From Shewanella loihica PV-4 (GTDB taxonomy: Bacteria; Pseudomonadota; Gammaproteobacteria; Enterobacterales; Shewanellaceae): 64,000 bases of DNA. Below the pieces are notes generated by a model. That model worked only from the letters and a program-made list of their open reading frames with translations, was not told the origin of the DNA and did no database searches. Below, piece by piece: positions 59,726 to 64,000 of this stretch. A program made the position numbers and the translations under genes. The stretch lies in the NCBI RefSeq assembly GCF_000016065.1, contig NC_009092.1:2108001-2172000 (forward strand), in the 5' to 3' direction. Positions within the stretch are counted from its first letter, which is position 1, and the number at the start of each line of letters is the position of its first letter.

Positions 59726-60003
59726 AATCGCTCCTTTTATCGCTCATGTTTATCGCGTCACTAGCCGGTTTTAACCTCATCCTTAGCCGGGCCATCTGTG
59801 AGTGCTAGTAGTGCTTCATCTGTGGCTGCTTAGCCGGCGAACACATCGTTAGGACCATAGTGACTCGATAAGCGCGGTAGATTAAGTTAGGTTTTATAGT
59901 AAAAACGGATAGGTGACTAGATTCATGCAAAAAGCTGGCTCTGGTAGCTGCTAGAGATAGCTAACAGTGATTGGCTGAGAGGCGCAAAGGTGAATTAAGC
60001 CAG

Positions 60004-60059
60004 GTAATTAAAGCTAAGTAATTAAAGCTAAGTAATTAAAGCCAGATCACTAAAGCTTC
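60004..60059. repeat. 14-bp tandem repeat, about four units, upstream of rhlE
   Basis: GTAATTAAAGCTAA at 60004-60017 and identically at 60018-60031, GTAATTAAAGCCAG at 60032-60045 and a diverged ATCACTAAAGCTTC at 60046-60059. Confidence 0.8.
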
Positions 60060-60111
60060 CTATATTATTGGTTTACTTTGGGTAAACTGGGCTAGTCTTA
60101 GCAAACGGCTC

Positions 60112-60120
60112 TGTTATACT
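60112..60120 (+). promoter_or_regulatory. Extended -10 promoter element for rhlE
   Basis: TGTTATACT fits the extended -10 consensus (TGnTATAAT) with one change. Transcription would begin near 60127, leaving a leader of about 60 nt before the rhlE ATG. No clear -35. Confidence 0.45.
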
Positions 60121-60189
60121 AGCGCGCCTCAAATACCAGCCGCTCGATTGGCTGACGATTTTTGCCCTTGCGACCCTAAGAGAGTATCC

Positions 60190-61656
60190 ATGACCTTTGC
60201 AAACCTTGGCCTGCCAAACGCTGTGCTCACTAACCTTGAGCAACTTGGCTACAGCCAGCCAACGCCAATCCAGCAAGAAGCCATTCCCCTGGCGCTCAAG
60301 GGTAAGAACCTGATCGCGGCGGCGCAAACCGGCAGCGGTAAGACGGCGACTTTCGTGCTGCCTATGCTCACGACCCTGATGCAGGGGCAGACACAGCGCA
60401 AGAAGCGGGCGCGGGCAATCATATTAGCGCCGACACGCGAGTTGGTGCTACAGGTAAATGATCGCATTGGCGAATATGGTAAAGGCTTAGGGCTGGTATC
60501 CATGGCCGTTTATGGCGGCGTCGATGTGCAGGCCCAAAAGCAGCAGTTGATCGAGGGCGTCGATATCGTGGTGGCCACCCCGGGTCGTCTGCGGGATCTC
60601 TACACCCAGAGAGCGATCCGCTTCGACGAGGTGGAGCTACTGGTGCTCGATGAAGCCGATCGCATGTTGGATATGGGCTTTATCGAGGATATCACCAAGA
60701 TCTTAGATACCCTGCCAGAAGAGAGGCAGAACCTGCTGTTCTCCGCCACCCTGTCTCGCCCGGTGCGCGAGTTGGCGAAACAGGCGGTGCCTAAGGCGAT
60801 CCACCTGTCGGTCACTAAGAATCAAGATAGCCAGCCAGATATCGAGCAGTGGATCACCACGGTCGATAAGGATAAGAAGTCGGCGCTGCTCAGTCAGCTG
60901 ATTAAAGACAATGCCTGGCCCCAGGCGCTTATTTTTATCGAGACCAAACATGGTGCCGCCAAGTTGGTGAGCCAGCTGGAGAAGCGGGGCATTCAGGCCG
61001 AGTGTATTCACAGCGGTCGTACTCAGGCGGTGCGTGAACAGATCCTGGCGGACTTTAAGGCGGGTAAGATTGCCTACCTTATCTCCACCGGCATCTCGGC
61101 GCGCGGGATAGATATCGATAACCTGCCGCTGGTGATCAACTATGACCTGCCGTTTCCCGCTGACGAATATGTGCATCGCATCGGGCGTACCGGCCGAGCC
61201 GGCGCCAAGGGCGAGGCGATCTCCCTGGTGTCTAAAGATGACTTTAAGAACCTCTGCATGATCGAGAGCCGCCTCGATCACTTGCTGGAACGTCGAGAGA
61301 TAGAAGGTTTCGCGCCGAGAAAACCTGTACCCATCTCTATCCTTAACTATGTGCCCAAGGCCAAGCGTGAGCAGGCGCAGGGTGAGAAGGGTAGCGAAGC
61401 CGCGGCTAGCCAAGGTGTGAAGGCTCCTAAGGAAGCTAAGGATAAGCGCAGAGAAGATAAGCCTAGAGGGCAATCCAAGTCTCAAGGTAAGGCAACTCCT
61501 TATAAAGGTAGCTCTACAGACAAGAAGGCTCGGCCTGCTAAAGCTAAATCAGCAGCGCCTAGTGATCGCGGTGGGAAAGATCAAAGGTTAGAGCATAAGG
61601 TTGAAGAAAAGCCAGCTTTTAATCCTTGGGCCGAAAGTCGGCCGGGTAAGAAATAA
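60190..61656 (+). CDS. rhlE: DEAD-box ATP-dependent RNA helicase RhlE-like
   Basis: Protein of 488 residues with a complete helicase core: Q motif QPTPIQQEAIP, motif I AAQTGSGKT, Ia PTRELVLQ, II LDEADRMLDMGF, III SATL, V STGISARGIDI, VI HRIGRTGRAG. The C-terminal tail (from about 400) is rich in Lys, Arg, Gln and Ser, and is likely RNA-binding. It unwinds RNA duplexes, typically in ribosome assembly, decay or cold growth. The start is ATG 60190 (MTFANLGLPNAV); an earlier frame adds 14 residues of no similarity. The symbol is by family likeness. Confidence 0.92.
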   Translation: MTFANLGLPNAVLTNLEQLGYSQPTPIQQEAIPLALKGKNLIAAAQTGSGKTATFVLPMLTTLMQGQTQRKKRARAIILAPTRELVLQVNDRIGEYGKGLGLVSMAVYGGVDVQAQKQQLIEGVDIVVATPGRLRDLYTQRAIRFDEVELLVLDEADRMLDMGFIEDITKILDTLPEERQNLLFSATLSRPVRELAKQAVPKAIHLSVTKNQDSQPDIEQWITTVDKDKKSALLSQLIKDNAWPQALIFIETKHGAAKLVSQLEKRGIQAECIHSGRTQAVREQILADFKAGKIAYLISTGISARGIDIDNLPLVINYDLPFPADEYVHRIGRTGRAGAKGEAISLVSKDDFKNLCMIESRLDHLLERREIEGFAPRKPVPISILNYVPKAKREQAQGEKGSEAAASQGVKAPKEAKDKRREDKPRGQSKSQGKATPYKGSSTDKKARPAKAKSAAPSDRGGKDQRLEHKVEEKPAFNPWAESRPGKK

Positions 61657-61667
61657 GATTTAACGAG

Positions 61668-61690
61668 AGCCCTCAGATTGAGGGCTTTTT
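61668..61690 (+). terminator. Terminator of rhlE
   Basis: AGCCCTCA (61668-61675) pairs with TGAGGGCT (61679-61686), followed by TTTTT. Confidence 0.82.
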
Positions 61691-61691
61691 T

Positions 61692-61721
61692 ACATCTGCA
61701 GCATTCATTGCAGATGTTTTT
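61692..61721 (+). terminator. Second hairpin with T run after rhlE
   Basis: ACATCTGCA (61692-61700) pairs with TGCAGATGT (61709-61717), followed by TTTT. It lies directly behind the first terminator, as a back-up. Confidence 0.65.
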
Positions 61722-61859
61722 GATTGGCCTCTTTGTAGGGTGTTCTGGAATCTTAGATTTCTAACAGTTTTGTTAGCAAGATGAGAACACTTCTGGATTG
61801 ATTGCCGTAGGCGGCTTTGTTATCGGCTAAATATGTTTGAAGGTTTTAGTTTCATGGTG

Positions 61860-61988
61860 ATCTAACGCCTGCCCGGCGAGGGTTGTGCAGATACCCTTGT
61901 GAGACGCCGCAAGTACGCTCCCTGTAGGCTCTACCGTGACATCCCTGTCACGGAAGCTCACAAATGTATCTACACTCGATATCTAACG
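61860..61988. repeat. MITE-like hairpin element flanked by 8-bp direct repeats
   Basis: ATCTAACG occurs at 61860-61867 and 61981-61988. Between them lie CCGTGACA/TGTCACGG (61934-61953, loop TCCC) and a larger imperfect pairing of GGCG-AGGGT with ACCCT-CGCC. The size (about 121 bp), internal palindromes and direct repeats are those of a small non-autonomous repeat; similar sequences may be interspersed in Shewanella genomes, but no second copy is in this window. Confidence 0.5.
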
Positions 61989-62390
61989 TCTCTCCGATTT
62001 GACCACTTTTGATGACTAGTTGAAAGTTTAGAAGGTTGGTAACCTTTACTCGCTAGACTGCGGATTGATACAGGTATAATGGGATTTTGCCAAAAAGTCC
62101 CACTTTCACTTCCTTCTATTTAAACTTGCGATTCTCGCTTTGTTTTTTAAAAATTCGTAACTTACTGATTAGCAGTGGTTGAATTTTGAATAGTTCTGAT
62201 TTAATAGCAAGTGGCGGCGGTCTCGCCCTTTCTTTTAAATAAGCCGAGTCTCGCTTTGTTTTGGGGTCGCTCACTTTCTCCTTGTTATGCAATGTCATTA
62301 TTGGTATAAATTTCATATGGTTAAGAAATTTTGTCGCGATGTATATTAGGTGATAATGATTTGCATAGGCGGCATTCTCGCTAATAAGCG

Positions 62391-63386
62391 TTATGTGCAA
62401 GGGAGAAATCGCAAATAAATGAGAACAATTGATACTATTTTTTCCTCAGAAGTAAATGTCCCTCTATATCATTACACTGGGATAGGGTCCTTGTTAGGAA
62501 TGGCAAATTGTAAATCAGTTTGGGCGAGCAGCATTTCTTACATGAATGATTCAAAAGAAATAGTGCATGCATGCGAAACGGTCGAAAATGTATTACGAGC
62601 ACGAATAGTTTTTGGTCAAAAAGATGAAGAACATCGCTTTCTGGAACAATTAATTGAATGGACTAAATCTTGCTCGAAAGTCGCACATACAATGTTCGTC
62701 TTCTCTCTATCCGAAAAACCGAGTCTTTTAAGTCAGTGGAGGAGTTACACTCCACATGGTAAAGGTGTAAGCCTTGAATTTAGCCCAAATAAAGTAAATG
62801 AAATCGCTCGCTTCACAGGAATGAGAATTGCTAAGTGTGTTTATGATGATAGAGAGCAAGAAGAAATAATTAGCATTTTGGTTGAAAAACTATTGGTTAA
62901 TTTTAGGCAGGAATTGCCAGCTATGGATATAACTGATAAGCCGCCTAGTCAGTGCTATTATGATTTCATTAATCAATATACGAGTGACATATATCAAGTT
63001 CTTGCAATTATAAAACATGGAGCATTTGAGGAAGAATGCGAATGGCGACTAATCTCTCCACACATTCCAAAGTTTGGTGATCCAAGATTGAAGTTCAGAG
63101 AAGGTGCATCAATGTTAGTGCCTTATATAGAGCTACCATTAGGTGATAAACCATTTTTTCGTAAAATAATATTAGGCCCGTCCCAGCACCAGAATTTAAA
63201 CATGTCTGGTCTATCGATGTTTATGAGTAATCAAGGCATCTCAAATGAGCTATTAAACTGCCAAATTCCTTATAGGGAATGGTAAGCACATAACAAGCGG
63301 CAGCAATCGGACTTGCAAAACAGTCACTCTTTTTTCCAAAAAACCGGCAAAACAAGCGCCAATTTTGCAAGCCGTTGTGCCGGGCG
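62391..63386 (+). mobile_element. Integron gene cassette carrying a DUF2971 gene
   Basis: The segment begins at G^TTATGTGC (62390/62391) and ends at G^TTAACA (63386/63387) with an attC site at its 3' end. The first nine bases around the left boundary (GTTATGTGC) are the exact reverse complement of GCACATAAC (63286-63294), as required when a cassette's R' box is split by IntI recombination. It encloses one open frame in the normal orientation, 28 bp after the boundary, with almost no room for its own promoter. No integron integrase gene is in the window. Confidence 0.85.
62419..63285 (+). CDS. DUF2971 family protein (cassette-borne)
   Basis: Protein of 288 residues. Typical DUF2971 features: N-terminal LYHYTG, WASSISYMNDSKE (35-50), FVFSLSEKPSLLSQWRSY (about 94-112), GKGVSLEF, and IKHGAFEEECEWRLISPHI near 205. 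No signal peptide or membrane segment. The function is unknown; the family is frequent on mobile elements, and toxic or defence roles have been suggested for such cassette genes but not shown here. It is visibly AT-richer than all neighbours, consistent with recent transfer. GGGAG lies 13 bp before the ATG, a longer spacing than usual. Confidence 0.85.
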   Translation: MRTIDTIFSSEVNVPLYHYTGIGSLLGMANCKSVWASSISYMNDSKEIVHACETVENVLRARIVFGQKDEEHRFLEQLIEWTKSCSKVAHTMFVFSLSEKPSLLSQWRSYTPHGKGVSLEFSPNKVNEIARFTGMRIAKCVYDDREQEEIISILVEKLLVNFRQELPAMDITDKPPSQCYYDFINQYTSDIYQVLAIIKHGAFEEECEWRLISPHIPKFGDPRLKFREGASMLVPYIELPLGDKPFFRKIILGPSQHQNLNMSGLSMFMSNQGISNELLNCQIPYREW

Positions 63387-63392
63387 TTAACA
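63286..63392 (+). other. attC: attC recombination site (59-base element)
   Basis: R'' ACATAAC (63288-63294), 5-nt spacer AAGCG, L'' formed by GCA-CAA-CGG within 63300-63310, long central part, L' CCGTTGTGC (63372-63380), 5-nt spacer CGGGC, R' GTTAACA (63386-63392). L'' and L' pair throughout except for G63303 and T63307; A63311 is also unpaired, followed by a 9-bp inner stem CTTGCAAAA (63312-63320)/TTTTGCAAG (63363-63371). Unpaired bases on only one side of the stem and 5-nt spacers are the defining attC features. Confidence 0.88.
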
Positions 63393-63435
63393 TGCAAGAA
63401 TAGTCATATTGGTGTATCTGACTGAATGAGTCGAA

Positions 63436-63490
63436 ATCAAAAGCGAGTAGGCTGAGCGTGGTAATTAATGCTTAATCTACTCGCTTTGAT
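63436..63490 (-). terminator. Long-loop hairpin, possible terminator of the GH13 gene
   Basis: ATCAAA-GCGAGTAG (63436-63450, one extra A) pairs with CTACTCGCTTTGAT (63477-63490), with a 26-nt loop. It follows the GH13 stop on the minus strand by about 20 bp. The large loop and absent T run make terminator function uncertain. Confidence 0.45.
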
Positions 63491-63508
63491 ATCTTGAAGG
63501 GACAGGGC

Positions 63509-64000
63509 TTATTTCTCTCCTACGACGAGTACCTTTGACTCAAGTGGAGCAAGGTTTAGTGTGACTTGACCTCCCTTCGTCGTTAGCGTCAATGGCGCTG
63601 CAGGTTTTTTATCACTCAACATCTCTTTAAGCGGGTAGGTGCCTGGTGCGAGTTGCCAGCGTTTAACTAAGGCTGGGGGCAGCTCTAGGGTGAGGTGCTT
63701 TGCCTTGTCTTTGGCGAAGTTGCTGACGATGATGAGCTTTTGCTTGTCGTCGAAGCGGCTGAAGGCAAATAGGTCTGCATCATAGCCCTTGCCTTGATCG
63801 ATATTCGCCCTGTGCAGATCGCCATATTCACCGCTTAGGGCACTCAGGCTATGGCTGAGGTTTAACAGCTTGGCGTAATAGGCTCGCAGACTCAGCTCCT
63901 CTTTTGAAGACTGACCGCCGTCGAATTTACCCAGGTTCATAAAGCGCTGGTGGGCCGGCACGCCAACATAGTCGAAGATGCTGGTGCGGCTGGGTTTGCC
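63509..64000 (-). CDS. GH13 alpha-amylase family enzyme, C-terminal part
   Basis: Partial gene: 164 codons are open to the right edge. The visible part begins GKPSRTSIFDYVGVPAHQRFMNLGKFDGG, a sequence seen at the end of the GH13 catalytic barrel in extracellular or periplasmic alpha-amylases and cyclomaltodextrinase-type enzymes. A domain C beta-sandwich follows (LFAFSRFDDKQKLIIVSNFAKD, TLNLAPLESKVLVV). The catalytic Asp/Glu/Asp triad lies beyond the edge. It presumably degrades starch or maltodextrin with the GH15 and GH97 enzymes at 45-54 kb, though about 9.5 kb of other genes lies between. Confidence 0.85.
   Translation of the reverse strand, partial: GKPSRTSIFDYVGVPAHQRFMNLGKFDGGQSSKEELSLRAYYAKLLNLSHSLSALSGEYGDLHRANIDQGKGYDADLFAFSRFDDKQKLIIVSNFAKDKAKHLTLELPPALVKRWQLAPGTYPLKEMLSDKKPAAPLTLTTKGGQVTLNLAPLESKVLVVGEK

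Follow-up and report, generated by a model that had tools for sequence, protein, structure and literature searches.

A gene cassette between rhlE and an amylase gene in Shewanella loihica PV-4 was very probably captured at one of about 20 dispersed attI-like docks that lack an integrase gene, and loaded there by an integron integrase (IntI) acting in trans. The window analyzed here is the whole stretch of 64,000 nucleotides that contains it (NC_009092.1, positions 2,108,001 to 2,172,000), and positions are counted from its first base. Each dock would consist of a short leader and an attI-like site ending in G^TT, with its own small cassette array behind it; the better-kept leaders appear to carry a degenerate SOS box, and those of the family represented in the window (type A) also a −10-like element. 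IntI, supplied by a resident integrase since lost or by a plasmid-borne arrival, would join a circular cassette, through its folded attC, to the G^TT of a dock, placing the cassette gene behind it. Because the docks have no intI in cis, they are called attI-like.

The segment 62391-63386 is confirmed as an integron gene cassette with precise boundaries and an attC that looks intact (Table 1), as an earlier note based on the window sequence had proposed. Its crossovers can be read from the sequence, at G62390^T62391 on the left and G63386^T63387 on the right. The bases at the cassette start (G^TTATGTGC, 62390-62398) are the exact reverse complement of GCACATAAC (63286-63294), and a nine-of-nine complement at two fixed places has a chance probability of 3.8e-6. 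In known integrons, the bottom strand of attC is the strand that folds and recombines. Here the bottom strand folded into an attC-like hairpin with three single-base bulges, all on one side, at an energy of −25.1 kcal/mol (z, −3.99) that none of 200 shuffled sequences equalled. The first covariance model (R1) scored the site at 52.8 bits with the site itself part of the model. Because R1 contained the window's own attC, a second model (R2) was built on 20 attC sites, all from other genomes, and this gave 42.1 bits (E of 1.2e-8 for 235 kb). The sites used for the models were chosen by eye among the matches listed (first 14 per strand). Complementary R''/R' ends, L''/L' boxes, an imperfect hairpin, and one-sided bulges, the features that characterize an integron cassette, are thus all present, and the fold and attC model that the note had proposed as checks both agreed with it, as did Pfam with its assignment of the cassette gene to DUF2971. 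Residues 56 to 145 of the cassette protein also partially match a PADLOC phage-defence candidate, PDC-S31 (PDLC04990; E, 3.3e-7). R2 gave no second attC in the 64-kb window at E values up to 0.1, and an Rfam search of 60000-64000 returned nothing relevant.

Table 1. Features of the S. loihica PV-4 window in and around the captured cassette
Feature	Position	Strand	Remarks
pal, imperfect palindromic repeat of about 169 bases	61837..62005	+	Sole copy in the window
Type A leader, integrase-less attI-like region	62003..62390	+	Repeated segment; ends at AATAAGCG^TT
LexA-box-like CTGC-N8-ACAG	62058..62073	+	One mismatch to CTGT-N8-ACAG; putative, by sequence only
−10-like TATAAT, pointing to cassette	62075..62080	+	Kept beside the LexA-like box in longer leader copies
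attI-like core with inferred IntI crossover G62390^T62391	62360..62396	+	GGCATTCTCGCTAATAAGCGTT, repeated in the genome
Gene cassette, 996 bases	62391..63386	+	9/9 complementary ends and attC
Cassette gene, 288 aa, DUF2971	62419..63285	+	Pfam PF11185, E 4.5e-12
attC	63288..63392	+	42.1 bits with a model without S. loihica sites; fold
attC boxes	R'' 63288-63294; L'' CGGCA 63298-63302; L' TGCCG 63378-63382; R' GTTAACA 63386-63392		Read directly

The DNA to the left of the cassette is a repeated segment that ends at the crossover. A 2-kb query (61640-63700) against 117 genomes of the genus returned many matches to pal, an imperfect palindromic repeat upstream of the leader, and four further long matches that stop no more than 6 bases beyond the left crossover (two in G113 and one each in G033 and the S. 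loihica genome). As this query mostly caught pal, the leader was searched alone (62003-62396, 129 genomes), and it matched 7 of the 129 (S. loihica, G033, G113, G070, G102, G017, and G063). Apart from a 27-base match to a different part of the query in G063, the matches end at query positions 390 to 394, which is 2 to 6 bases past the crossover after position 388; those in G017 and some other matches are short (31 to 98 bases), and in the G102_C1 leader CC replaces CG ahead of the crossover. Five matches lie in the S. loihica genome, one of them covering only the right 144 bases, and the core GGCATTCTCGCTAATAAGCGTT has five exact places there plus a sixth with 2 mismatches. Behind the five full or partial type A copies of this genome stand five different cassettes, and the docks of G113_C3 and G033_C12 have the same cassette start. 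When 1.5 kb was read downstream of each leader place (G063 and G102 excluded), the exact 7-base R'' complement was present in 14 of 18; for S. loihica copy A2 it was found in a longer stretch, and it was absent from the 1.5 kb behind G113_C23 and both G070 leader copies. R1 places attC about 0.4 and 0.8 kb behind these two G070 leader copies.

These repeats changed the reading of how the cassette arrived. An attG is a non-classical genomic site with a degenerate, non-conserved target, and chance insertion of one cassette at an attG-like site was a candidate until the upstream repeat was found, when it was dropped; such insertion is reportedly an established route for single cassettes, from work of Loot et al. 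in 2024. The target here is instead a conserved repeat, about 390 bases long, with its end at the crossover and with different cassettes behind its S. loihica copies, which makes this route extremely unlikely. A conserved site, with G^TT as the crossover and the array beginning there, is what is expected of attI and what the dock shows. The earlier note had put forward that the cassette was inserted outside an array, at a single chromosomal site; on the same evidence, this gives way to a repeated dock with sister copies holding other cassettes. The TATAAT in the leader is a putative promoter for the cassette, and the leader as a whole would be expected to drive the cassette gene.

No integron integrase exceeded the curated cut-off of the TIGR02249 profile in the PV-4 assembly, a single contig of 4,602,594 bases listed as 100% complete, so the absence of an integrase that the earlier note had reported for the window extends to the complete genome. 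The two best places found with the profile are Xer-like, and both lack profile positions of about 182 to 237, the stretch that holds the IntI-specific insert. Complete integrons have intI adjoining attI; in this genome just an intI 5' fragment at 3.74 Mb is kept, and no full intI lies near the window dock or elsewhere. A plasmid outside the PV-4 assembly may carry one.

Two further attI-like ends were found upstream of other attC clusters in the same genome, and the resulting families were named types A, B, and C in this analysis. Type B (GCGCATGCGCACTAATAAAATG^TT) includes the attI of Shewanella type that has been described in S. oneidensis and prophage M16-3 (PMC9892861), and type C ends in CAAGGTCTCACTAATAAGTTG^TT. 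With up to 3 mismatches, S. loihica has 6 type A, 10 type B, and 3 type C sites, and a fourth, diverged type C site at 1,055,850 was recognized by eye, for a total of 20 attI-like sites (A, 6; B, 10; C, 4). With a docking site at about 20 places and no integrase found, cassette capture looks spread over many integrase-less docks. Across 126 genomes of the genus, type B cores (up to 3 mismatches) occurred in 62, type A-like cores in 14, and type C-like cores in 11, compared with 0 (B), 1 (A), and 1 (C) matches for reversed control patterns; because some 3-mismatch matches are other variants, such as ACTATACAAATG, and some adjoin intI, these are counts of similar cores rather than of proven docks. 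The highest type B count in one genome was 14 (G051). At least 4 type B sites were present in 24 genomes, 23 of which were covered by the integrase search; an intI match at an E value of 1e-60 or below was found in 12 of the 23 and not in the other 11, S. loihica among them. Types A and C were not seen beside an intact intI, the nearest being the attI of G020, and we infer that IntI recognizes both. When the type A core was sought more widely, in a scan from which the S. loihica genome was possibly absent, 9 loci in four species were obtained. One of these, in Thalassotalea, resembles a mixture of types A and C; its 8-kb locus has no intI match, and its sole attC match (28.0 bits) is on the same strand, about 1.6 kb further downstream.

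All 20 S. loihica docks have an attC match 253 to 1,859 bases downstream on the same strand, and 19 of these dock-linked sites reach at least 21.9 bits with R2, which contains no S. loihica site. The scores of B1 (21.9 bits) and A6 (22.3 bits) are modest, and the attC of B6 is weak, at 14.1 bits (E, 0.16) with R1 and missing from R2 at E values up to 0.1. In total, the genome has at least 39 attC matches, a lower bound because 150 of 1,105 candidates were scored, and the 37 listed matches form 18 clusters, each of which starts at one of the 20 attI-like sites. The cassette called "lone" in the earlier note is therefore alone in the window, with its one attC, and far from alone in the genome. 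Two other genomes were compared: of the 14 type B sites in G051, 11 have an attC within 4.5 kb downstream, as do 6 of the 9 in G015; three sites in each had none within that distance, and one of the three in G015 is the attI beside a resident intI.

The linkage of docks and attC bears on two other explanations. The leader might be a mere transcription- or palindrome-linked repeat near cassettes rather than an IntI site, in favor of which pal also occurs without a dock, at the rhlE locus of G013. However, intact leader copies end at G^TT, type B has the published S. oneidensis-type core, and attC accompanies every S. loihica dock, so that this explanation is very unlikely. A single large ancestral integron, later broken up by rearrangements, would account for the array of seven attC matches that has the intI 5' fragment next to it at 3.74 Mb and for the lack of any intI over the cut-off. 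Yet break-up would leave one attI, whereas the listed clusters each have their own, from three families and at scattered loci, with orphan leaders unlike the resident leader, and such an origin is accordingly very unlikely. Loss of an array, the other possibility raised by the earlier note, likewise leaves unexplained why every cluster has its own attI-like site.

Capture at dispersed docks can also be followed at orthologous loci in relatives. In the rhlE-amylase interval, S. loihica and G033 have a type A dock in common with differing cassettes, in G070 the dock is of type C and its cassettes are others again, and G013 shows pal alone; the empty site that the earlier note suggested looking for (GCG joined to TTAACATGC) was not seen in the interval as read in these three relatives. 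Beside a pstS-like gene (named by eye), S. loihica, G070, and G102 have a common type B dock (90 to 95% identity) whose first cassettes differ. At this locus, the G113 dock is a type A variant, one G033 flank joins a type C dock, and G013 reads as a decayed dock. No attI core was present at this second locus in G046, G051, or G009, which, with G013 at rhlE, represent the dock-free relatives. As S. loihica, G070, and G102 have no intI match at E values up to 1e-60, cassette exchange at the pstS-side dock implies an integrase that was lost since or that came from outside. The flanks of the G033 pstS-side dock lie on separate contigs, C14 (L188) and C1 (L189), each adjoining dock or array DNA; two docks may have exchanged DNA, or the assembly may simply be broken here.

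Arrays in these relatives also appear to carry insertions of other kinds. Several arrays of G033, G070, and G113 (L049, L050, L052, L065, L087, and L092) are cut at one and the same point just past R'', after TAACAAGTGACTGTGGTG or TAACAAGCGACTGTGGTG, by a repeat that begins GACTGTGGTGTTTAGTCAATATATTTATCCG and resembles an attC-targeting element, perhaps IS110/IS1111-like. A second element, starting CTGGGGGATCCCCTCATAA, sits at the apparent attC crossover (between GGCG and CTGG) in two arrays, L049 of G033 (about position 1650, reverse strand) and L093 of G113 (about position 955). In S. gelidii (G017), a dock on the reverse strand (L062, about 230-1130) lies, by eye, beside a tRNA-like sequence, as in a genomic island, and adjoins an open frame resembling the start of a phage-type integrase.

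Bearing on the origin of the docks is the homology between type B leaders and intI-attI DNA. Over its last 160 bases, the B6 leader shares 87% and 89% identity with the intI-linked leaders of G113 and G013, and an alignment puts the SOS boxes of type B and intI-linked leaders in register further upstream. B10 matches G113 over the entire leader, retains the 5' part of intI at 3.74 Mb (tblastn residues 1 to 56), and has an array of seven attC matches; it looks like an old home integron with its integrase lost. Fragments of intI also persist in G070 (residues 1 to 47) and upstream of one type A site in G113. Together with the 53 residues of intI that are left at a Pseudoalteromonas copy, such relics would be expected if several complete integrons had arrived independently and intI had been lost in place at each, an origin that we consider unlikely but to which we give more weight than to the other rivals. 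Among the S. loihica type B sites in the leader tree described below, however, only B10 has intI upstream. Six type B orphans share a CTGG SOS box, and many have a common upstream sequence that is not intI, as expected if docks multiplied after intI loss.

The LexA box has the consensus CTGT-N8-ACAG. A perfect box was present at 16 of 17 intI-adjacent loci (14 of 15 genomes) and, among the 19 orphan sites tested, in B10 alone, which keeps the intI fragment. Nine of the 19 orphan boxes differ from the consensus at a single base (six type B boxes with CTGG and three type A boxes with CTGC), 6 have two, and 3 have three mismatches, which is the chance level for such a stretch. A tree of type B leaders was built from 38 loci, of which 26 were kept, each a distinct leader that extends 290 bases or more upstream of a strict type B core. 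On this tree, the division into orphan and intI-linked leaders takes 3 changes, compared with 7.1 in shuffles (0 of 500 as low), though the separation is not clean, as two long-branched intI rows fall among orphans and one orphan (L054) among the intI rows. Multiplication after intI loss fits the tree better than repeated losses do, and a single origin is not proven by it.

How docks might have multiplied is suggested by pal. Same-orientation copies of pal end 174 to 507 bases upstream of 16 of the 19 attI-like sites tested; the nearest for B2 is 1,142 bases upstream, and the 1.5 kb upstream of B4 and of B10 contains no copy. All pal copies within 1.5 kb upstream (17 of 19 docks) are in dock orientation, with none inverted. 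Downstream copies, found at 7 docks over a reach of up to 9 kb that was uneven between loci, are all inverted, with none direct; at the window dock, none was present in the 1.6 kb covered downstream. No pal match occurred in 54,450 fetched bases of the S. loihica genome more than 6 kb from attI-like sites. Several arrays also share a 71-base right end that follows the last attC and begins at its crossover. Similar right ends number 29 in 9 genomes, and by reading most begin at an attC crossover; the exceptions are one cut by a contig end and two, on G046_C34 and G102_C1 (511 kb), that follow no evident attC. The docks may thus have spread as pal-flanked units after intI loss. Because the window array is without the 71-base right end, and because an empty type B dock (attI joined directly to the common right end) was found in 0 of 126 genomes, leaving the unloaded ancestral form unseen, spread as a pal-flanked unit is offered as a hypothesis.

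Similar sites also occur on mobile replicons. Among 72,556 plasmid and 50,697 phage records, none matched the type A leader. The type B leader matched 21 of the plasmid records, from Shewanella (14), Citrobacter (2), Pseudoalteromonas (2), Enterobacter (1), Escherichia (1), and Moellerella (1), and two phage records that represent one phage, M16-3. Five stretches of 7 to 12 kb each, four from plasmids and one from the phage, were examined closely, and the 17 other plasmid records may hold complete integrons. In all five stretches, an attI-like site is followed by attC downstream on the same strand. A tblastn search found no intI in four of the five, and the Pseudoalteromonas stretch is the one that keeps the 53-residue fragment. 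In the S. baltica plasmid the core is altered at the crossover, the first cassette gene of the Enterobacter IncC plasmid is annotated as fosfomycin resistance, and the Moellerella plasmid has a predicted trimethoprim-resistance gene. On the IncC plasmid (L190, 948-3808), the attI-like site follows a trio of genes encoding a hypothetical protein, a 634-aa site-specific integrase, and another hypothetical protein, and this trio might be part of the element that carries the site. M16-3 has a complete integron elsewhere in the prophage (PMC9892861, in its available text).

From these data a distributed integron can be tentatively envisaged, at somewhat less than even odds: a non-autonomous, pal-flanked mobile unit with attI and a detuned SOS promoter that has multiplied to up to about 20 Shewanella loci per genome and has also entered plasmids and a prophage. 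The chromosome as a whole would then be a set of cassette docks, on which transient integrases act in trans. The anatomy itself, about 20 integrase-less attI-like docks in one chromosome, is well supported by sequence comparison as a new form of integron setting.

Several known systems share parts of this anatomy. The attI of the SonIntIA integron of S. oneidensis MR-1 (AAACGCGCATGCGCACTAATAAAATGTT; PMC9892861) has the same core as the type B docks and a homologous leader. Unlike that attI, the type B docks of S. loihica have no adjoining intI, number ten in the one genome (up to 3 mismatches), and carry the CTGG box in six cases; the window dock belongs to another family, type A. CALINs (attC clusters) and SALINs (single attC sites) are likewise cassettes with attC and without intI, and the window, with a single attC match in a genome that has no intI over the cut-off, falls under this description. 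In contrast to the definition of a CALIN, which includes no attI, all 18 listed clusters here begin at an attI-like site. Known attI sites displaced to the end of a cassette also recombine outside their normal place, whereas here the attI-like site starts a separate chromosomal array. The sole published precedent found is the CALIN of prophage M16-3, which also has attI at the array start (PMC9892861). It is a single example, and the prophage concerned also has a complete integron, whereas S. loihica has about 20 sites of three families, no intI over the cut-off, and counterparts in other species. No earlier report of multi-copy, integrase-less attI sites per genome was found in the open-licence literature.

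An integron is usually described as one platform consisting of integrase, attI, and array. Here about 20 attI-like docks, each at the head of a small array, lie in a complete genome that yielded no integrase. Plasmids carry similar sites as well, and some of these plasmids are conjugative ones from Enterobacterales. Current tools miss such docks, as attI sites beyond class 1 go unsearched; attI detection in IntegronFinder 2.0, for example, is limited to class 1, according to the available text of PMC9024848. Dispersed docks would account for the abundance of CALINs and SALINs in Shewanella, with CALINs reported in 59 genomes and 115 SALINs in 41 genomes (PMC9229058), and would make the docking site a part in its own right, separate from the enzyme.
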